Part shown: piece after piece, positions 1 to 33,546 of the stretch
Numbering within the stretch: position 1 is the stretch's first letter
How the letters are laid out: each line of letters opens with the position of its first letter
NCBI GenBank assembly: GCA_015178975.1
Contig: WHVD01000128.1
Span: 1 to 64,000 of the forward strand
DNA: 64,000 bases
Origin: Hysterangium stoloniferum
Taxonomy: Eukaryota > Basidiomycota > Agaricomycetes > Hysterangiales > Hysterangiaceae
Reading direction: 5' to 3'
Position numbers and translations under genes: made by a program
Notes under the pieces: model-generated
The model's database searches: none
What the model was told of the DNA's origin: nothing
Seen by the model: the letters and a program-made list of their open reading frames with translations, nothing else

Positions 1-60
1 CCTATATAAAAAATTGAAAAAATAGAAATTTTCTTCTTTATTACCCCCATCTTCGTCACT
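1..60 (+). promoter_or_regulatory. TATA promoter of the antisense accessory gene (A-1)
   Basis: TATATAAA lies at 3-10, about 50 bp before the ATG at 61, followed by a pyrimidine-rich stretch (ttcttctttattaccccc). The same arrangement recurs in the second element (TATA at 27124-27131, ATG at 27183), so it is a conserved part of the element. Transcription from it would run against gag-pol. Confidence 0.7.
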
Positions 61-1040
61 ATGGGGACCAAAACCAACACCACGCAAACCAATGCCGACA
101 GCAGGGCCTCCACGGGCACTCCGTATCGGGCGCCGTGGACGGCGGCCCAATTGTTGGCGCGGCGAGAAGAGCAGCGCCAGCTTCGTGAAGCAGCAGAGAG
201 AGAGGCGAGGAGGCTGAGGAGGCCCTGGACAAGGAGTACCAGGAAGCATTGGCCGCGGAGGAAGAGGCCGCAAAGGAGAGGGAACGTGAGGCGGAGGAGG
301 CTGCGCGAGTGGCCGGAGAACGCCCGGGTGGCTGCGGAGAAAGCCCGGTTGGCCGCGGAGAGGGCCGCCATTGTTGCGGGAAAAGTAAGTCCCAAATTCA
401 CTTGTCGATTGTTTACTGACTTGTGATTTTCAGCGCAAAGCGACAGAGGTGGAGTCCGAGTCCGAGGGGGAGCCAGAGAGCCCCCAAAAGGTAGGCCTCA
501 TGTCCATGGAATACCCGCGGAGACTGACCAACTCAACAGAAGGCAAGGAAGGCGGCGCCAGTCCGTCTTCCGACGCGGAACGAGCCGCGGTGTTCCGGTT
601 GCAACGACCGGAACACGGAATGCAACCGAAAGGCCGGCCGGGGGCCGGGATGTTATCAATGCGCGCACCTCAAGGCGAGGTGCTCGCTTGTGCACGAGCA
701 GGCCACGGGATCCGGGGCGCGAGACATAAGCGGTACGGACGGGTTGTCCGGGTTGGACGAGGTCCTTGGACGGATCGCCGAGGGCATCGAGGCCCAAAAC
801 GAGTTGCTCCGGAAGAGCAACAAAGTCCAAATTGTGGTGGCAAAGGAGCTGTCCGGACTCCGCGAGGAGTTTTGGAAGTTCCTGGCGGAGTATGGCGGCT
901 ATGTCTTTGAAGAGCCGCAAGTCGGGAGTTCCGAGGATGCCGGATCGGATGAGGACGGGGTTGCCGCGGAGGTCGCGGAGCTCCCAGAGGAGATAGCTGA
1001 GGAAGCAGGGAAAAAGAACAGTCCCATAAATGTAGACTGA
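61..1040 (+). CDS. Antisense accessory gene of the chromovirus: coiled-coil and Zn2Cys6-type protein, 293 aa
   Basis: Three exons are seen: 61-384, 434-490 and 540-1040. They are separated by two 49-bp GT-AG introns (gtaagt...ttttcag and gtaggc...caacag), and all junctions are in phase 0. The N-terminal exon is rich in Ala, Arg and Glu and prone to coiled coil. The third exon carries six cysteines spaced C-x2-C-x6-C-x9-C-x2-C-x6-C at about residues 145-175, which fits the fungal Zn2Cys6 binuclear cluster. A helical segment and a very acidic tail follow. The gene converges on pol (pol stop at 1252) and has its own TATA box. Sibling copy: 27183-28142. Within exon 1, about 206-320 reads Arg-rich in the ATG frame but Glu-rich in another frame, suggesting two compensating indels. 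A DNA-binding or chromatin role is inference only. Confidence 0.75.
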
Positions 1041-1251: not shown

Positions 1252-4200
1252 TCAGAGAGACGATAATGGTCCAGGTTTGAGTGGGTAAGCTGTATGAAAG
1301 TCAGTAACAATTTCCGTGGCATTACCGAGTTCCGTGGCCAAAATCCATGAGGTTTCTTCATCGGTGCCCTCGTAACCCGCCCACTTGACCAAGTAAAGCA
1401 GTTTACAAGTGCGTCGACGCTTGTCAATTTTTGAATCTAAAATCTGAGAGATTTCAAACTCGGGTTCTCCGTCAATGACGACAGGAGGAGGCGGAGATTG
1501 CACGCGATCTGGGATAGTGTTAGCAGTACAAGGTTCTAGCATAGAGACATGAAATACCGGGTGTACCGCAGCGCATGCTATCCGGAAGCCGTAGAGTCCA
1601 AGAAACTGAACCTACTTGTGCGATAATTTCAAAAGGACCTAAATATTTTTCAGCAAGCTTCTTTGATGGACGGGTAGTCCGGAAGAATTGAGCTTTGACA
1701 TAAACACGGTCGCCAATCTTGAAGTTTGGTGGCGGGATCCGGTGTTTGTCCGCTGAATGTTGGTATTGCTCTTGGGCGGACAATATTGCAGTCCGGAGTT
1801 CCTCGTGGAGCTCGTGGAGGTCCGTGGTGAACTCTTGAGCACGAACAGAGGCGAGATTTCGTTCTGGATGTACTGTAATATTTGGATTATATCCTTTATT
1901 TGCAAAGAACGGGGAAACGCCAGTAGTGGCCGAGGGTGCATTGTTGTAAGCAAATTCTGCAAGTGGTAACAAGGTTTTCCAATTGTCCTGTTGATAGTTG
2001 CAATATACGCGGAGGTATTGTTCCAATGTCTGGTTGACGCGTTCGGTTTGTCCGTCACCTTCCGGGTGATGTCCGGACGTGAAATGTAATGTCATGTCCA
2101 AGGATTTTCCGAGGGATCTAAAGAAGTGAGACACGAACTCTGATCCTCGATCGGAAGTCACGTGGGACGGAACTCCGTGCTTGGAAAATACGTGGATAAT
2201 AAAAAGTTCCGCTAACTGCACGGACGTAATTGTATCATAAGTAGGGATGAATATACCTTGTTTTGAGAATCTGTCAACAACGACTAGGATAGCGGAAAAG
2301 CCTTCGGAATCCGGCAGGTGTTCAATGAAATCCATAGATATAGAATTCCACGGGTGTTCCGGTACCGGGAGTTGTTTCAAAAGGCCGTATGGCTTGTGTC
2401 GCTGAGATTTCGAGCGGGGACAAGTAGTGCAAGATTTACAATAGTGCTTAACGAATCCACGGAGTCCGGGCCAAGTATATTCTCTTCTTATTAATGATAG
2501 AGTCTTGTTGTACCCGAAATGTCCTGAGAGTGGATGATCATGTTTGTATTGAAGGATCCTGAGGCGGAGGCCGTCGGAGTCCGGTACATAGATCCTATCG
2601 TCAAGTCTAATGAAACCATGTTGATCAAGAGACCACCGAGGTTGATCGGGGTCCACGGGATTGTCCAGATGAGCTTTAGTAACTGGGTCTAGCGGAATTG
2701 CCGATAGAATATCTTGATGTAGCTTTTCGATATCCATAATGATAATTCCACGGACAATGGGATTGACGAGGAAAGTTGCGCGGACCGATGCGGTAAGTTG
2801 TTGATTCGTGAAGATAGGTTTCAGGTTGTGCGGATTTACCGTTGCATAGTCGTTGCTCCCCTCTTTAGGATAGACGTCCCATCGTCTAGTTAAAGCGTCG
2901 GGTTTGCCGCCGAGACGGCCGGGTCGAAAACGGATAATCATGTTGAAGGCGGAGAGATATTCAGACCAGCGGGCCTGCCGACGGGTCAAGAGTTTTGTGG
3001 TAGAAAAGTATTCCAGGTTTTTGTGATCTGTTACAACGTCAATAGGAGCTCCTGAACCTTCCAAATAGTGTCGCCACGCTTTGAAAGCTGAAAAGATTGC
3101 CAGAAGTTCTTTATCATGAACGTCGTAGTTGAGCTCTGCTCCGGTAAAAGTCCGGGACAGAAAAGCCACGGGGTGAACTTCTCCGTCGGAGTCCTGGATA
3201 GAGAGAATGGCTCCAAGTGCATAGTCGGAGGCGTCCGTTTCAACAATGAGCGGGAAGTCCGGTTTCCAATGCGACAGAATAGGAGCTGTGGAAAAAGAAT
3301 TTTTTAAAAGATTGAAAGCTTTTTGACACTTATCGTTAAAGTTCCACGGAGTACCCTTACGCGTAAGACGGGTAAGGGGTACCGTGATGTCGGAATATCC
3401 ACGGATAAAACGTCTATAAAAATTGGCAAAGCCGAGGAAGGATTGGATATCTTTAACTTTTCGGGGTTCGGGCCAGTCTTTGATGACTTGCACTTTAGTT
3501 TCGTCCATGCGGAGTCCATCGGGTCCCATCATGAAACCTAGGTATTCCACGGAGTCCGTGTCAAAAGTACATTTTTTACCATTTGCGAATAAACCATGTT
3601 GTCTGAGCCTCCGGAGAACCTCACGGACTTGTTTGTCGTGTTCCGCGGGATTCTCGGAGTAGATAAGAATGTCGTCCAAGTAAACAATGACGCATACATC
3701 GAGCATGTCGGAGAAAATGTCGTTGATAAAACGCTGAAAAACAGACGGGGCATTAGTGAGTCCAAAAGGGATGACCAACCACTCGAAGGCCCCATAGCGG
3801 GTTCTAAAAGTGGTTTTCCATTCATCGCCCGCGGCAATCCGGACCAAATGATAGGCATGCTTGAGATCTATTTTGGTGTAAATCCGGGCATTCCGCGGAG
3901 CATCGAGCAGGTCAGATATAAGTGGGAGTGGATATTTGTCCTTTTTGGTGACAGCATTGAGTCCTCTAAAATCAACACATAGTCGAAGGGATCCATCCTT
4001 TTTTCTGACAAACAGAACAGGTGCTCCAAAAGGAGACTTTGAGGGTCGAATAAAACCTATGGACAAATGTTCATCCAGGAAATCACGGATTGCGGATAGT
4101 TCCGTGGACGAAAGCGGGTAAATATGTCCTAGGGGTGGCTGGGCGCCATCTTCAAGATCGATTTTTAAGTCGTATTCTCTGTGAGGCGGAAGCCGGTCAG

Positions 4201-5110
4201 CTTTTCGCTTGCTAAAAACATCCGCGAAGTCATGGTATTTCTCCGGGACGCCTTCTAGGTCAGCAGCTTGCTCAGATTCGGATACTGGGGTTGAGAAACG
4301 TCCAGTTGCTTCATCAATTTTTAAGTTGATAGTGAACGCCTGGGATCCATCCATTTTTGAAGCCCTAATAAAAGCTGCAGCATTAATCAGAGAAATGGAC
4401 GGAGGTGCCGTGGGTTCCGGGGAAGCTGTGGGTGCCGTAGGGATCACAGGAGTCCTCGAGACTGCAGGTGCCGGGAAGGCCATGGGTGCCGTGGAGGCCG
4501 AGACAGGCGCAGTTTCCTCGGTCGCCGCGGGAGTTCGGAATGTTATACTGTTAGCTATCCAGTCAATCAACGGATTGTAGCGGGTAAGCCAGTTATGTCC
4601 TAGAACCACCGAGCAACTTGAGTCTAACTGGGTCACATAGAAAGTGACCAATTGAGATGTTCCACAAGGGAAACTGATGGGTAAATCACAAGCTTGGGTA
4701 ACAACCGAATTACTTGTGCCATCGAAGAGGCGGAGAGCGACGGGATTTATCGAATAAGTTGACAAAGAATTTTTTTGCGTGAATTTTGTATCTAAAAAAC
4801 AATGAGTCGAGCCGGAATCTATGAGAGCTGAAAAAACGAATTTCGGAAGCATATTAGACATAAGTTTAACGAAAAATGAATCAGAATGTGAAAGAGCGGA
4901 TGCGTTGAGGCGAGTGAACTCTTGAATGCGCGGAGAGGCAACGCAACCCCTAACCCGCGCGGAGTCCGCGGGGTTGCTTACTCTTTTTTCGAATCGGCAG
5001 CCGGTTTGTCCTTCGACAGGGTTTCCGTGGAGGCCTTGGCTGTTCGACCCTTTGAAGAGTTTGCTTTTGCCAGCGGACATTCCGGGACTCGATGACCGGG
5101 TTTCCCGCAC
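1252..5110 (-). pseudogene. pol: Pol polyprotein (PR-RT-RNase H-integrase-chromodomain) with one frameshift
   Basis: The main frame (5110-1520, 1196 codons) has in order: aspartic protease with DSG at residues 98-100; reverse transcriptase with YLDD at 477-480; RNase H with Asp626, Glu668 and Asp695; integrase zinc finger (His859/His864, Cys894/Cys897); integrase core with Asp927, Asp987 and Glu1023; and a GPF motif at 1158-1160. Then the frame is lost near 1566. Compared with the sibling copy, 1 nt is extra there (accgcagcgc against accgcgcac). The chromodomain continues in another frame at 1542-1252 (LLYLVKWAGYEGTDEETSW). Pol begins in the -1 frame relative to gag with a 133-nt overlap and no required ATG, so it is probably made by frameshifting. 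Without the 1-nt change the protein would be one chromovirus pol. Confidence 0.92.
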
Positions 5111-6270
5111 AAGAGACAGAGGTTGTTGTCCATACGACGTTGTCTTTCTTGTGGAGTCAATTTGCCATCAGGTCCGAGTTTGCCTGAGAGGTCGGGTTTT
5201 CCGGCTTGCTTGCCGGACTGTTGACCCTTGTTGTTGTCCTTATTGTCCTTATTGTTGTTGTTGTTGTTTGAAGACTTTTTATCGTTCTTCTTGTCGGATT
5301 GCGTGGAGTTCTGGTTGCTGGTTGACGAATTGGTGTTATTGTTTTTGTCCTTGGACTTATTTATTTTGTCCGCGGATGTCTCGCGGGCAACTTCCGCGCG
5401 ACGTTCCCAATAACGTGCGTCCGCGTTTTGAGCTTTGAGGCGCATACGGGACAGGGTTTTTGGCTTGCCATCTTCTCCTTTTGAGACTTCGTCTTTAAGG
5501 CGGGACGGCAGACCGGCATAGAATTGGTGGCGGAGAGCGGGATCGCCCCACTGACAACGAGCTGCAAGATTATTGAATTGGACGATGTAGTCCGTGATGC
5601 GCTGCGTGTCCTTCATACGAAGATTTGTGAGACTATTCTCGGCTTCTCCTGTCGGGTCATACGGGCCGAAGTTGGTTTCAAGCTCCTCAACAAAAGCTTC
5701 CCAATTTTCAAGCCAGAGCGGCTCTTCCTCGGTAATCCCGCTAAAAGCCGGTTCGAACCATTTCAACGCGGATCCCGACAAATATGAAAGTGCGTAGTTG
5801 ACTTTTCGGGAGTCCGTGGAGAATGCAGCGGCGCGATCGCGGAAATTGAAGCGACATTGCATGAGGAAAGTAGAGAGTTTGTTTGGGTTGGAACCCGTGA
5901 AGGGTTCCGGAGCATTGACTTTTGACCGTGGAGGTTCTTGTTCCTTTCTTTTTCGTTCTTCTAGCAGGTGCGTCATGAATTTATCTATAGTACCTGCTAA
6001 AAACTCAGAAGTAGGATCCCTCGTGTTTGGTCGTTGAAAAGGCGGAGGATTTTCAGGAGGGATTTCGACACCTTTGCCCTTGTCGGGGGCCACGGAATCG
6101 TCCTCGCGCTCGGATTCGTCCAGGTCTTCCGGGATTTCTTCGATGCGGGCTTCTTCCATGGGTTCCGACTGGTTCGCAAGCGTCTGACTGGTATACAGAG
6201 TTAACGGGGAATGAAGAGTCGACGGTCCAGGCATTGATGACTGTGCGCGTGTACTTCTTCTTGGTGGCAT
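4978..6270 (-). CDS. gag: Gag protein with CCHC zinc knuckle, 430 aa
   Basis: Structural capsid-nucleocapsid protein of the chromovirus. The ATG at 6270-6268 starts MPPRRSTRAQ, only 36 nt after the 5' LTR. The middle third (about residues 110-270) is the retrotransposon gag region, with conserved stretches such as LSGSALKWFEPAF and LETNFGPYDPTGEAENSL. A Ser/Asn/Lys/Asp-rich low-complexity linker follows, then one zinc knuckle C-x2-C-x4-H-x4-C (CLLCGKPGHRVPEC). The frame ends at TAA just after a run of six A, where pol overlaps in the -1 frame. The gene is intact, unlike the copies in A-2 and in the decayed elements. Confidence 0.93.
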   Translation of the reverse strand: MPPRRSTRAQSSMPGPSTLHSPLTLYTSQTLANQSEPMEEARIEEIPEDLDESEREDDSVAPDKGKGVEIPPENPPPFQRPNTRDPTSEFLAGTIDKFMTHLLEERKRKEQEPPRSKVNAPEPFTGSNPNKLSTFLMQCRFNFRDRAAAFSTDSRKVNYALSYLSGSALKWFEPAFSGITEEEPLWLENWEAFVEELETNFGPYDPTGEAENSLTNLRMKDTQRITDYIVQFNNLAARCQWGDPALRHQFYAGLPSRLKDEVSKGEDGKPKTLSRMRLKAQNADARYWERRAEVARETSADKINKSKDKNNNTNSSTSNQNSTQSDKKNDKKSSNNNNNNKDNKDNNKGQQSGKQAGKPDLSGKLGPDGKLTPQERQRRMDNNLCLLCGKPGHRVPECPLAKANSSKGRTAKASTETLSKDKPAADSKKE

Positions 6271-6293
6271 AATGAAAGCAATCTGCGAGTATT

Positions 6294-6304
6294 AGTCAGA
6301 AAAT
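6294..6304 (-). promoter_or_regulatory. Putative self-priming primer-binding site
   Basis: Reading the element strand, ATTTTCTGACT begins 3 nt after the LTR end. It is the exact reverse complement of AGTCAGAAAAT at 6631-6621 inside the LTR, which lies about 33 nt downstream of the start of the LTR TATA box and so near the expected RNA 5' end. This is the Tf1/sushi type of self-priming. No tRNA-like primer site (for example TGGTATCAG) is present in the 36-nt leader. Confidence 0.65.
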
Positions 6305-6306
6305 AC

Positions 6307-7126
6307 TGTTAGGATACACACTCAGGCCGGGTTTCCGGAGAAACCCGCGGGATATCCGGTAGGACTTGGCTTCAGCTTATAGGCTGCGCCCTCGCTAGAT
6401 CGTGTTGTCCAATTTCAGACAGGCGGACGGGAATCCCGGGGAGTCCAGGCGGGGGTTCGTGGGTCGTGAGTCGTAGGTCGTGAGTTGAGAGTCGTGAGTC
6501 GAGATAGTCGAGAGAGATAGATGCGCCGGAGCCCGTGGGCTCCGACTAGTGCGAGCGGTCTGATGAGAGTAGGGTTTTAGAGAGGAAAATGTATTAGATT
6601 ACTGGGGGGAATCTAAGCTAATTTTCTGACTGGATTGTATGTACAACATCTGCCAGTTTATATAGACCGTGGAATGCATGACATACCGAATCCAGTAATA
6701 ATGAGACGAAACGAGCAAAACATAAAACGGGAATAGTAAACACCAAATTGGTGTTAGGAACGGGACGGAACGGAGCGGAGTCCGAATCGTGACAAAGCAT
6801 AACCCATAACGGGAAACGGAGCGGGAGCGGAGTCTTAAATCGTGACAGGTCATTTGACTAAAACGGGAACGGGGCTCGATTAGAGCGGTGACGGGATTCT
6901 AAGCGGGTCCGGTGACTGATGCGTGGGACGAAGACGGACATAGACAGAGACGGGGTCCGGGGGAAGTCCGGTGACTGATATGTGTCTTAATGAGGTCGAA
7001 CGTAACGAGTCTTGACGTAACGGAGTCCGGGCGGGAAATCCTATAAACAGACGATTGGTGCTTATAGCGCGTGGGGGCGTACGAGTTAGTGCCCGGAGTC
7101 CGGCGGGATTTGTCCGGGTCGTAACA
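6307..7126 (-). repeat. 5' LTR of chromovirus A-1 (family A)
   Basis: This LTR is 820 bp. On the element strand it begins TGTTACGACC (7126) and ends CCTAACA (6307). It aligns along its length with LTRs at 26152-26974, 32732-33546 and 34096-34920. Three direct blocks containing the theme GGAATTCCCGCCGGACTCC (or decayed versions) occur near its start. Near its end it contains the block AAGCTGAAGCCAAGTCC shared with other LTR families. Confidence 0.93.
6657..6664 (-). promoter_or_regulatory. LTR promoter TATA box
   Basis: TATATAAA on the element strand lies in the middle of the LTR. The other LTR copies have TATATAGT-like versions at the same place. The predicted start, about 30 nt on, coincides with the 11-nt segment that matches the putative primer-binding site. 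Confidence 0.6.
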
Positions 7127-8186
7127 CCATGTCGCAACCCGATGGTCTCCGAGAATACTACAGTCTATCGATGTTCCAAGTTATTGATCAAGTCATCATT
7201 TCGGCAACCTTCGGAATACCGACACTGACATATACCTTCATGGCGATCAAACCTCGTTTACGCCCCTGTCAAAATATACTTGTACCATCTGGTTATGCTT
7301 TGATACATCCCCTTTCATTATGATGATCCATTTTACTCTATGTTTCACATATGCCCATATATACCTGTAGCCCGTGGACTATTTCCTTTTCTCGTAATCC
7401 CACTCTCGGCTAAATCTCGGCTTCCAATCTTATCGTAACCTTCCGGTTTCTAGTCAAGTCTATTCATCAAATAGTGTTTCTGCTCTTCCCTTAGTTAGTA
7501 GTTTCTAGATGCCGACAACTCATATATAAACCTGCTGTAAATGTAGTTATTAGACAATGAGAATATCAACTTAGAATATCGACTTAGAATATCGACTTAG
7601 ATCAACTTAGATACCCTCTAATTTCCGACTCCATTATCTATTCACGACCACCACATTCCGACTCCATCTGATTTACGATTCAACCTACATTTACAACTTC
7701 AACCTCTAATCTCCGACTCTCAGTCTCTGACTCTCAGTCTCCGACTCTCAGTCTCCGACTCTCAGTCTCCGACTCTCAGTCTCCGACTCTCAGTCTCCGA
7801 CTCTCAGTCTCCGACTCTCAGTCTCCGACTCTCAGTCCCCGACACTCTCAGTCTCCAACTCTCAGTCTCCGACTCTCTCAGTCTCTGACTCTCTCAGTCT
7901 CCGACTGTCTCAGTCTCCAACTCTCTCGGTCTCCGACTCTCTCAGTCTCTGACTCTCTCAGCCTCCGACTCTTGGTCTCCGACCCCTCAACCCAACCCTC
8001 AACTTATCCTTCGGTTTCTGATCGGTAGTTTACTGAGAGGTTTACTTGACAGGACTAGTTTTCGCCTGCCTGAAATTTAAGGACACCTGACGGTAACTTG
8101 CGAGGGTGCAGCACATAAGCTGAAGCCAAGTCCTTCCATTCGGTCCCTGTCGGCCAGCCGACATCTGTCAGTTTCTGCTCTTAACA
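7127..8186 (+). repeat. LTR of family B, cut near its start by chromovirus A-1
   Basis: This copy aligns with the complete solo LTR at 35050-35769: same start region (gtcgcaaccc), same end (ctgaagccaagtcct...cttaaca). Its first few bases are missing because A-1 inserted there. It is longer than the solo copy because of the expanded minisatellite at 7718-7985. The right border abuts a DDE transposon gene, so the LTR is itself an insertion; the expected duplication GCATG (8187-8191) has its partner outside the window. Confidence 0.8.
7718..7985. repeat. Minisatellite of 14-16 bp units (cagtctccgactct) inside an LTR
   Basis: About eighteen head-to-tail units of cagtctccgactct, with later units extended to 16 bp by an extra ct, and some with g-to-a or c-to-t changes. 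The other family-B LTR has only a single related unit (cagtctgatact) at this place, so the array arose in this copy. Confidence 0.95.
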
Positions 8187-26151: not shown

Positions 26152-26974
26152 TGTTAGGGTACGTACATGGCAGGTTTCCGGAGAAACCTGCAGAATATCT
26201 GGTAGGACTTGGCTTCAGCTTATAGGCTGCACCCTTGCGAGATCGTGTTGTCCAATTTCAGACAGGCAGATGGGAATCCCAGGGAGTCCAGGTGGGGTTC
26301 GTGGGTCGAGGGGTCATAGGTCGGAGGTAATGGGTCAAGAGGTCAGGAGTCGAGATAAATAAGAGAGATAGATGCACTGGAGCCTGTGGGCTCTGACTAG
26401 CGTGAGCGGTGTAATTCAAGTAGGAGTATAGAGCAGAAAATGTATTAGATTACTGGGGAGAATCTAAGCCAATTTTCTGACTAGATTGTATGTACAACAT
26501 CTGCCAGACTATATAGACCGTGGAATGAATGTCATACCAAATCCAGTAATAATGAAATGAAACTAGCAAAACATAAAATGAGAATAGTAAACACCAAATT
26601 TGGTGTTAGGAACGGGACAGAACAGAGTGGAGTCCGAATCGTGACAAATCATAAACCATAACGGGAAATGGAGCGGGAGCGGAGTCTAATTGTGACAGGT
26701 CATTTGACTAAAATGGGAACGGGGCTCTGTTAGAGGGATGATGGGTTTTCCAAGTGGGGTCCAGTGACTGACGCGTGGGACAAGGTCGGACATAGACAGG
26801 GATGGAGTCCAGTGGGTATTCTGGTGACTGATACACAACGTAACAAAGTCGAACATAAACAAGTCTGATGTATAGAGTCCAGTGGGAATTCTGGTAAACT
26901 GACAATTAGTGTGTATAGGGCACAGGTGTGTATAAGTTAGTGCCCAGAGTCCAGCGGGAATTCCAGTTGTAACA
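26152..26974 (-). repeat. 3' LTR of A-2
   Basis: This LTR is 823 bp. On the element strand it begins TGTTACAACTGG (26974) and ends CCTAACA (26152). The left border is next to AGTCC. Confidence 0.95.
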
Positions 26975-26988
26975 GTACCCTCCCTTTA
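26975..26988 (-). promoter_or_regulatory. Polypurine tract of A-2
   Basis: On the element strand AAAGGGAGGGTAC lies directly before the 3' LTR, where plus-strand DNA synthesis is primed. Confidence 0.75.
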
Positions 26989-27123
26989 TGCTGAAGTCCC
27001 AAATAGGCTCTAGACCTCAATAAGGTTCTTGTCAGCTATGTGCATGTGTCAAAGCCATGTCGGTTACACATATGTGTCAAAGAGTCATGTGATCTGGAAG
27101 GTAAGGTTCAGACACGACGAGCC

Positions 27124-27131
27124 TATATAAA
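27124..27131 (+). promoter_or_regulatory. TATA box of the antisense gene in A-2
   Basis: TATATAAA, about 52 bp before the ATG at 27183. Position and flanks match the start of the window in A-1. Confidence 0.65.
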
Positions 27132-27182
27132 AATTTGAAAAAATGAAAATTTCTTCTTCTTTATTACCCCCATCTCACCATA

Positions 27183-28142
27183 ATGGGACCCAAGCCAACG
27201 CCAAGAAGACCTATGCCAACCGCTGGGCCCTCCACAGCACTCCATATCAGGCACTGCTCAGCATGGCCCAAATACTGGCGCAGTGAGAGGAACAGTGCCG
27301 ACAATGTGAAGAGGCAGAAAAGGAGGTGAGGGAGGTGGAGGAAGCCCTAGCAGGTGGCCTTAGCCGTGGAGGAAGAGGCGGAGAGGCAGAGAGGCAGAGA
27401 GGCAGAGAGATGAGGAGGAGGCCACACAAGTGGCCATGGAAAAAGCCCAGGCAGTTGTGGACAGGGCCACGTTACCGTGGGAAAGGTAAGTCCCAATGCT
27501 TCCACTTGTCAAATTTCACTGACTTGTATTTTCAGCGCAAAGTGACAGAGGTGGAGTTGGAGTCCGAGGGGGAGCTGGAGAGCCCCCATAAGGTAAGTCT
27601 CAGGTCATCCGTGGGAAGTCTGGGAAACTGACCATGATCAACAGAAAGGAAGGAAAGTGGCACCAGTCCACCTGCTGATGCAGAATGATCCACAGTGTTC
27701 TGGTTGCAATGACCAGAACACAGAGTGTAATTGGAAGTCTGGGCGGGGACCGGGGTGTTACCAGTGCGTGCACCTCAAGGTGAGGTGCTCACTCGTCCAC
27801 GAGCAACTCATGGGGTCTGGGGCACAGGATGTTACCAGGACAGACGGGATGTCCAGGTTGGACGATGTTTTGGGGTGGATTGCCGAGGGCATTGAGGCCC
27901 AGAATGAGTTGCTCCGAAAAAGCAACAAGGTCCAAATTGTGGTGGCGAATGAGCTCCATGGGCTCTGCTCAGAGTTTTGGAAATTCCTCACGGAGTTCGG
28001 CGGATACATATATGAGGAGCCACAAGCCAGGAGTTCTGAGGACGCTGGGTTGGATGAGGATGGGGTGCCCGCAGAGGTAGTGGAGCTTCCTCAGGAGATG
28101 GCTGAGGTTGGGCAAAAACATACCTCCATAAATGTAGATTGA
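27183..28142 (+). pseudogene. Antisense Zn2Cys6-type accessory gene, copy 2 (first exon damaged)
   Basis: It has the same plan as 61-1040: exon 1 from 27183 to 27485, introns 27486-27535 and 27593-27644, exon 2 27536-27592 (57 bp in both copies), and exon 3 27645-28142. Exon 1 has an in-frame TGA (about 27283) and indels, so the full protein is lost. Exon 3 is fully open and keeps all six cysteines with identical spacing (CSGCNDQNTEC, then CYQCVHLKVRC). It also keeps the helical segment GWIAEGIEAQNELLRKSNKV and the acidic tail ending SINVD. Splice donors are even better than in A-1 (gtaagt at both). Confidence 0.8.
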
Positions 28143-32731: not shown

Positions 32732-33546
32732 TGTTAGGGTATGTACATGGCGGGTTTCTGGAGAAACCCATGGAATATCCAGTAGGACTTGGCTTCAGCT
32801 TATAGGCTGTGCCCTTGTGAGATTGTGTTGTCCAATTTCAGACAGGCAGATGGGAATCCCAGGGAGTCCAGGTGGGGTTCGTGGGTTGAGGGGTCATAGG
32901 TCAGAGGTCGTGGGTCGAGAGGTCAGGAGTCGAGATAAATAAGAGAGATAGATGCACTGGAGCCTGTGGGCTCTGACTAGCATGAGCGGTGTAATTCAAG
33001 TAGGAGTTTAGAGCAGAAAATGTATTCGATTACTGGGGGGGAATCTAAGCCAATTTTCTGACTGGATTGTATGTACAACATCTACCAGACTATATAGACC
33101 ATCGAATGAATGTCATACCAAATCCAGTAATAATGAAATGAAACTAGCAAAACATAAAACGAGAATAGTAAACACCAAATTTGGTGTTAGGAATGGGATG
33201 GAACGGAGCGGAGTCCGAATTGTGACAAATCATGAACCATAATGGGAAATGGAGCAGGAGTGGAGTCTGAATTGTGACAGGTCATTTAACTAAAAGCTCT
33301 GTTAGAGGGATGATGGGTTTTCCGAGTGGGGTCCAGTGACTGATGCATGGGACGAGGTCGGACATAGACAGGGACGGAGTCTGGTGGGAATTCCGGTGAC
33401 TGATACACAACGTAACAAAGTCGAATGTAGACAAGTCTGACATGCGGAGTCCAGTGGGAATTCCAGTAAACTGACAATTGGTGCATGCAGGGCATGGGTA
33501 CATATAGGTTAGTGCCTGGAGTCCAGCGGGAATTCCAGTTGTAACA
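32732..33546 (-). repeat. 5' LTR of A-2
   Basis: This LTR is 815 bp, from TGTTACAACTGG (33546) to CCTAACA (32732). The right border is next to AGTCC (33547-33551). Confidence 0.95.

Follow-up and report, generated by a model that had tools for sequence, protein, structure and literature searches.

A spliced antisense Cys6 gene at the 3' end of a fungal chromovirus

On the strand opposite to pol of a Ty3/Gypsy element lies a three-exon reading frame with six regularly spaced cysteines. This locus raises the question whether a retrotransposon can keep a working, intron-containing gene antisense to its own coding sequence and, if so, what the protein does for the element. The window, i.e. the whole stretch of 64,000 nucleotides analysed, is the first 64 kb of contig C33 in the 111-Mb assembly of Hysterangium stoloniferum, an ectomycorrhizal basidiomycete (Phallomycetidae), and all gene copies discussed below come from this one genome. 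A database protein of the species matched the assembly at 99% over residues 65-201.

The host element and its antisense gene

The host element is a Ty3/Gypsy chromovirus of a family, here called A, which is present in the window as copies A-1 and A-2 (other genomic copies carry L numbers). Copy A-1 lies on the minus strand, with the 5' LTR at 6307..7127 (its far end set from the 821-bp length in other copies), gag (Retrotrans_gag) at 4981..6270 and pol, encoding protease, reverse transcriptase, RNase H and integrase, at 1252..5167, the pol frame being interrupted in this copy. The 3' LTR of A-1 is missing because the copy begins at base 1 of its contig; the 3' and 5' LTRs of A-2 are located at 26152..26974 and 32732..33546, also on the minus strand. 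A Pfam scan placed RVP_2, RVT_1, RNase H, Integrase_H2C2 and rve within a single pol frame of the element and gave a Chromo match of 32.3 bits, above the cut-off of 25.1, at the pol end (chromodomain frame of A-1 at 1252-1611, minus strand). Self-comparison revealed paired LTRs in 13 of 20 stretches around other copies, the remaining seven being cut by contig ends. The LTR measures about 821 bp, the two LTRs were 100% identical in L017 and in L022, and 5-bp target-site duplications were readable in six of seven copies (L011, L014, L015, L017, L022 and L028, not L009). Five full-length copies (L010, L011, L015, L017 and L022) had open gag, pol and antisense frames, with stop-to-stop frames of 437-438 aa for gag and 1304 aa for pol. 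Many of the closest family A copies are no more than a few kb away from a contig end (e.g. in C33, C25, C545, C554, C103 and C16), probably because repeats break the assembly. The diverged A copies were also considered as independent active families, which was rejected as they resemble old relics in a ladder-like tree, the next match of L042 being only 88%.

Self-primed elements of the Tf1/sushi-like type have a primer-binding site complementary to the 5' end of their transcript. In the sequence of one copy, L022, the stretch adjoining the 5' LTR (ATTTTCTGACT) has its complement in AGTCAGAAAAT, which lies at LTR position 495, 33 bp downstream of TATATAA at LTR 462. The primer-binding site (window 6250-6310 in A-1, and its counterpart in L022) thus looks self-primed and Tf1-like rather than tRNA-primed.

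Between pol and the 3' LTR, the opposite strand carries the antisense gene, which is oriented tail to tail with pol; it starts about 210 bp inwards of the 3' LTR, and its end is 214 bp away from that of the pol frame. On the plus strand of A-1, a TATA-like box (CCTATATAAA, 1..10) precedes exon 1 (61..384, charged and coiled-coil-like), intron 1 (385-433), the 57-bp exon 2 (434..490, with GT-AG flanks), intron 2 (491-539) and exon 3 (540..1040, stop at 1038-1040), which encodes the Cys6 cluster, a helical stretch and an acidic tail; small length differences in exon 1 scramble part of its frame compared to other copies. On the plus strand of A-2, a leader between the 3' LTR and the gene (26975..27182, TATA-like box at 27122-27131) is followed by exon 1 (27183..27485, with in-frame stops in this copy), the 57-bp exon 2 (27536..27592) and an open exon 3 with six cysteines (27645..28142). 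These layouts bear out the preliminary description, made from the window alone, which had proposed a three-exon antisense gene between pol and the 3' LTR, with correct coordinates in A-1, and the same gene at 27183-28142 in A-2 with the same intron positions, a 57-bp exon 2 and six cysteines. Its proposal of a TATA box specific to the gene was likewise upheld, TATATA being kept in 42 of 45 copies. Since both window copies are degenerate in exon 1, that description had seen two imperfect copies of a well-kept gene. The antisense protein of L022 has 294 residues, encoded by 109 + 19 + 166 codons, and all introns are in phase 0.

Splice signals and selection across copies

The gene is not confined to the two copies first noticed. 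A DNA search returned matches at 97-100% among the best 40 of 630 candidates, and the best 150 of 1341 candidates in an exon 3 protein search comprised 110 without stop and 40 with stop, 19 of them identical in protein; there are thus at least 40 DNA matches and at least 150 exon 3 protein matches. We assembled 47 copies from the 25 best DNA matches (in any frame), the two window copies and 20 diverse exon 3 matches (L029-L048), the latter being a biased subset as they were chosen stop-free; L001, L002 and L006 were left out as duplicates. The three-exon frame was open in 35 of the 47, including A-1, which is open but scrambled. Splice signals were scored in 45 copies, omitting L023 and L024, which are cut by contig ends. 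GT and AG were kept at both introns in all 45, the intron 1 donor was GTAAGT throughout, and a CTRAY branch-like motif was found in 43 copies in intron 1 and in all 45 in intron 2. The introns themselves drift, differing by up to 0.256 from those of L022 at non-CpG sites, with the splice signals still kept. Among 44 copies, indels were multiples of three in 17 of 27 cases in exon 1, 0 of 1 in exon 2 and 6 of 7 in exon 3, and in 3 of 69 cases in intron 1, 1 of 10 in intron 2 and 2 of 24 upstream of the gene. Three H. stoloniferum models were found in the protein database, two of which are continuous where splicing predicts it, P0002 at the exon 1/2 junction and P0003 at both junctions, although these models may be pure predictions. 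They were the only homologues found by word-based database searching of limited reach (in one case covering 8000 candidates at most), and no homologue was found in the viral contigs scanned. The introns would outlast retrotransposition because it is the sense RNA that is copied, and in that RNA they do not act as introns.

Substitutions were analysed in 44 copies, leaving out L023, L024 and A-1. In bins of increasing dS, exon 3 dN/dS was 0.19, 0.24, 0.27, 0.20 and 0.16; this comparison across copies, suggested in the preliminary description, hence gave 0.16-0.27 and not a value near 1. Similar values of 0.17-0.25 were found for the pol C-terminus (42 copies), while exon 1 was under weaker constraint (0.25-0.54) and exon 2 fell below the length threshold of the script. 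In control frames of exon 3, dN/dS was 1.04-2.22 for forward shifted frames and 1.05-1.99 for reverse frames 0 and 2. Reverse frame 1 gave 0.17-0.34, which is low because its wobble position is shared with exon 3. A sense-strand gene opposite exon 3 was rejected both in this frame, which has stops in 44 of 44 copies, and in reverse frame 0, which is open in 27 of 44 copies, yet has a dN/dS of 1.05-1.99. The copies are decayed at CpG sites, but the contrast in exon 3 persists without these: non-CpG transitions had changed 43 of 270 nonsynonymous vs 73 of 126 synonymous sites and non-CpG transversions 50 of 675 vs 30 of 117, with a smaller contrast for non-CpG transitions in exon 1 (67 of 175 vs 63 of 90). 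CpG transitions in exon 3 were seen in at least one of the 44 copies at 59 of 61 nonsynonymous and 41 of 41 synonymous sites.

Judged by these sequence comparisons, the antisense gene is real and under selection, introns included, and the view of an element-encoded antisense protein gene was supported by its conserved introns, purifying selection and multiple copies. A passive passenger, or a chance frame amplified with the element, would be present in the copies simply by inheritance, but it is hardly credible with a dN/dS well below 1, which holds even at the near-saturated dS between two divergent forms of the gene (B1 and B2, see below). It is also very improbable that the antisense RNA is the functional product, acting as dsRNA or by interference with the sense transcript, and that the protein is dispensable. 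Such a transcript and the sense RNA would overlap in the 3' portion of the latter, and antisense RNA control is discussed for other elements in the part of the literature consulted (PMC7264820); however, protein-level purifying selection in both A and B, frame-preserving indels in exon 3 and invariant splice sites speak for the protein.

Divergent forms and the block that reaches the distal U3

A chromodomain search was performed (best 150 of 2268 candidates) and five 3' regions were then inspected (L049-L053), one of which, L051, contained a divergent antisense gene with a Cys6 cluster. The ~3.1 kb fetched for each of L049, L050, L052 and L053 showed no antisense frame of the Cys6 type, and the gene is therefore not generally required by chromodomain elements. 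Downstream of pol, L049 (919-1509, element sense) and L050 (364-843) have homologous sense frames with 51% identity over 156 aa; the Pfam scan of the L050 frame gave no match, and by its sequence this is a different 3' extra gene. A long sense frame after pol was observed in L053 (311-2539, 743 aa) and L052 (405-1124), again with no Cys6 antisense frame in the stretch fetched, and the chromodomain end of both resembles that of L051.

With exon 3 of L051 as a query, the best 150 of 395 candidates showed 71-100% identity. Eight further B copies were read, seven of which had the same three-exon plan, the exon 2 region of L056 being apparently lost. Some copies are broken, in exon 1 (L057, L060 and L061), in exon 3 (L060) or at the exon 3 end (L057), and exon 2 of L060 is expanded into a long acidic run of EED repeats. 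Two forms were distinguished, B1 (L054, L055, L051 and L061) and B2 (L058, L059 and L057), each of which includes a young pair (L054/L055, dS 0.05; L058/L059, dS 0.02). Between the forms, exon 3 dS was near-saturated, with imprecise values of 2.4-2.7 for L055 compared to L057, L058 and L059 and of 1.5 for the older L061 compared to L058, at a dN of 0.22-0.24. Pooling nine B copies gave a dN/dS of 0.17, compared to 1.35 and 1.365 for shifted frames. When only these two sequences were compared, the A and B1 proteins aligned over 178 residues at 30% identity (E 1e-6), a match that is partly coiled-coil-like and weak alone; their homology is very likely because both genes have the same intron positions, intron phase, exon 2 start and Cys6 cluster.

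We also considered L051 (C553) as a second, unrelated chromovirus family carrying the gene, the pol of L062 being 29% identical to that of A. This was dropped because in L055 and L058 the B1 and the B2 gene, respectively, adjoin A-like pol and because the likeness of L051 to B1 ends ~17 bp past the exon 3 stop. Compared to A (L022), pol was 74% identical in DNA over 592 bp for B1 (L055) and 77% over 1476 bp, or ~85% in protein, for B2 (L066). From its sequence, L051 is a chimera or nested insertion in which, near position 529, a different pol type is joined to a B1 antisense gene.

The extent of the divergence was mapped on one B1-B2 pair (L055 vs L058). Identity in pol was 96-98% in the windows farthest from the gene and 78% at the pol end, and pol dS rose from 0.12 in the 100 codons preceding the chromodomain to 1.05 in the final 88, within which the chromodomain lies. 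On the other side of the gene, identity in 50-bp windows was 49-70% in the initial 150 bp of the LTR (U3) and 78-96% from position 150 to 721 (88.7% overall from 151 on), while two B1 LTRs compared to each other were 97-100% identical. The divergent block hence takes in the chromodomain, the gene, the leader and the distal U3. As far as this sequence comparison goes, a rise in dS from 0.12 to 1.05 and on to 1.5-2.7 over ~1.2 kb is hard to explain by regional rate, and the B pattern is what recombination between element lineages would produce. It looks like an exchangeable cassette composed of a regulator and its candidate target. A cassette could not be derived from rate alone in family A, where exon 3 and pol distances correlate (Mantel r 0.76 in 23 copies, 0.62 without A-2; 0 of 1000 permutations reached the observed r) at a median exon 3 to pol divergence ratio of ~3, so that a regional rate difference may suffice. 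In the A-2 LTR, the bin at the U3 end was the most diverged (0.176 and 0.184 vs 0.078-0.115).

The motifs of the LTR and leader were compared as well. Upstream of the TATA box, the A U3 contains CCGGAC six times and TCCCGT five times, all in the same orientation; this array is a lead only, because 6-mers reach these numbers in shuffled sequence as well (mean maximum 4.4, top 9) and no such array occurs in the B LTRs. CGG/CCG triplets were rejected as LTR target sites, since their enrichment in the LTR (56 vs 40.5 in shuffles) is accompanied by one in pol (175 vs 124.2), so that they mark no target. Three B LTRs showed no TATA-like hexamer in their first 620 bp. An unusually conserved leader was rejected, too: identity between A and B was 57-61% vs 43% in shuffles, yet lower than in pol. 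The family A leader (window 26975-27182) has a duplicated ATGTGTCAAA...GTCATGT motif, one unit of which is lost in L043, and B copies with a leader have a single one.

The block bears on two further readings. An accessory factor of the particle or pre-integration complex, serving in RNA binding, nuclear import or integration targeting with the chromodomain, would fit the basic stretch beside the Cys cluster (see below) and the position of the chromodomain end of pol within the divergent block (dS 1.05 vs 0.12 just upstream). However, a separate antisense promoter and splicing would uncouple its production from Gag-Pol, and the block reaches the noncoding U3, which makes this role doubtful. A little less doubtful, though still unlikely, is an anti-silencing factor similar to VANC, which would bind noncoding DNA of the element and counter methylation or heterochromatin, an arms race diversifying both gene and target. 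Consistent with this, CpG transitions are near saturation across copies, as expected of methylated copies, the divergence of exon 3 is ~3 times that of adjacent pol, and gene and distal U3 have diverged together between B1 and B2. On the other hand, the layout differs from that of VANDAL, and we know of no Cys6 cluster or antisense layout in VANC. VANC proteins are anti-silencing proteins of Arabidopsis VANDAL transposons (PMC10398659, PMC5735166), i.e. of plant transposons, and according to the parts of these sources consulted the analogy concerns only how they work, as element-encoded, sequence-specific proteins acting on their own family.

The predicted protein, its possible role and known antisense genes

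The antisense protein consists of an N-terminal charged, coiled-coil-like region, an acidic linker, a basic stretch, the Cys6 cluster, a predicted-helix-rich stretch and an acidic tail. The pattern CX2CX6CX9CX2CX6C was found in 45 of 47 form A copies (absent in L024 and L028), and the B copies read had six cysteines with a spacer of 10. Fungal Zn2Cys6 clusters follow CX2CX6CX5-12CX2CX6-8C with a basic first half-cluster. The spacing observed here is compatible with these factors (PF00172), but the cluster lies mid-protein after a coiled-coil-like region and a basic first half-cluster is not evident in form A. Pfam Zn_clus (PF00172) scored 10.2 bits, under the cut-off of 21, with weak matches in six of nine members (best E 0.35) and no match listed for the B forms in the Pfam scan. 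The label Zn2Cys6-type, given initially, therefore suits the cysteine spacing but is not backed by the Pfam profile (10.2 vs 21 bits). TRP28 (PF04195) was not among the Pfam scan matches of the A and B forms, no relatives of the protein were found in the PDB, and an AlphaFold2 model from three sequences was too poor for use (mean pLDDT 42).

Taken together, the basic stretch, probable zinc cluster, helical stretch, putative own promoter and U3 linkage are best read as pointing to a trans-acting regulator of the element's own DNA. We put the probability that the element carries its own nuclear nucleic-acid-binding regulator at roughly one half, and the faster diversification of the gene compared to its element neighbours, while it is kept working, suggests that this regulator is owned by the element. 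Transcription of the antisense gene would start from its own promoter, whose TATA-like box is immediately internal to the LTR, and the transcript would be spliced; zinc and DNA would be bound by the Cys6 region, and the helices may dimerise. The target would be the U3 or leader of the element itself, where the protein could, as proposed for antisense 3' proteins of plant elements, tune sense transcription or silencing of the element in trans, with either sign. HBZ of HTLV-1, which acts in trans on its element, provides an analogy for the proposed regulator; it is a spliced product with its promoter in the 3' LTR and belongs to the bZIP proteins. Both genes lie antisense at the 3' end of an LTR element and have a spliced layout, and the protein described here would share with HBZ the role of a DNA-binding-type regulator, but HBZ is a bZIP protein of a retrovirus with a promoter in the 3' LTR, and no sequence relation is claimed. 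That HBZ is the product of an antisense gene is described in the part of PMC4776189 consulted.

A more specific and rather unlikely extension of the element-owned regulator takes the lambdoid phage immunity region, composed of a repressor and its operators, as a model. In such a specificity cassette of antisense gene and distal U3, old copies would supply a trans regulator for matching U3, and variants with a recombined divergent cassette would escape and amplify as 'heteroimmune' elements.

The preliminary description had assumed that chromoviruses normally have only gag-pol, which overlooks antisense 3' genes reported for the plant Gypsy elements Retand, Grande and RIRE2 and, as brtn, for the fungal chromodomain element Boty. 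According to the parts of these sources consulted, Retand-lineage plant Gypsy elements carry antisense TRP28 ORFs (PMC11963269), and Grande (gene23) and RIRE2 have antisense 3' genes, gene23 being transcribed from a promoter upstream of the gene (PMC7264820). Similar to the gene described here, these genes lie between pol and the 3' LTR, are conserved over copies and are thought to be nucleic-acid-binding and possibly regulatory; Retand differs in being a non-chromoviral plant element, the genes are without Cys6, and those parts of the sources do not mention introns in them. Boty/BcGypsy1 of Botrytis cinerea carries the antisense gene brtn (Zhao et al. 2011, as reported in parts of PMC7264820, PMC8365987 and PMC4227169). 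This fungal Gypsy element with a chromodomain has its extra antisense gene at the same place, a likeness by description only, but its host is an ascomycete. In a survey of fungal LTR elements, a term search of the main text did not find the word 'antisense' (PMC3248453), and the open-access literature consulted in part yielded no fungal spliced or Zn2Cys6 antisense element gene beyond Boty.

Overall, antisense 3' genes are of a known kind, found in plant elements and Boty; what appears to be new is a spliced form with Cys6, together with the cassette. A fungal chromovirus lineage has long kept an antisense protein gene with introns, which gives a handle on the role of such genes and suggests a simple reason for the persistence of introns in a retrotransposon, namely that only an antisense transcript would contain them as introns. 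What merits following up is the cassette pattern, as near-saturated divergence of gene and U3 beside near-identical pol predicts allele-specific action of the protein on its own LTR.
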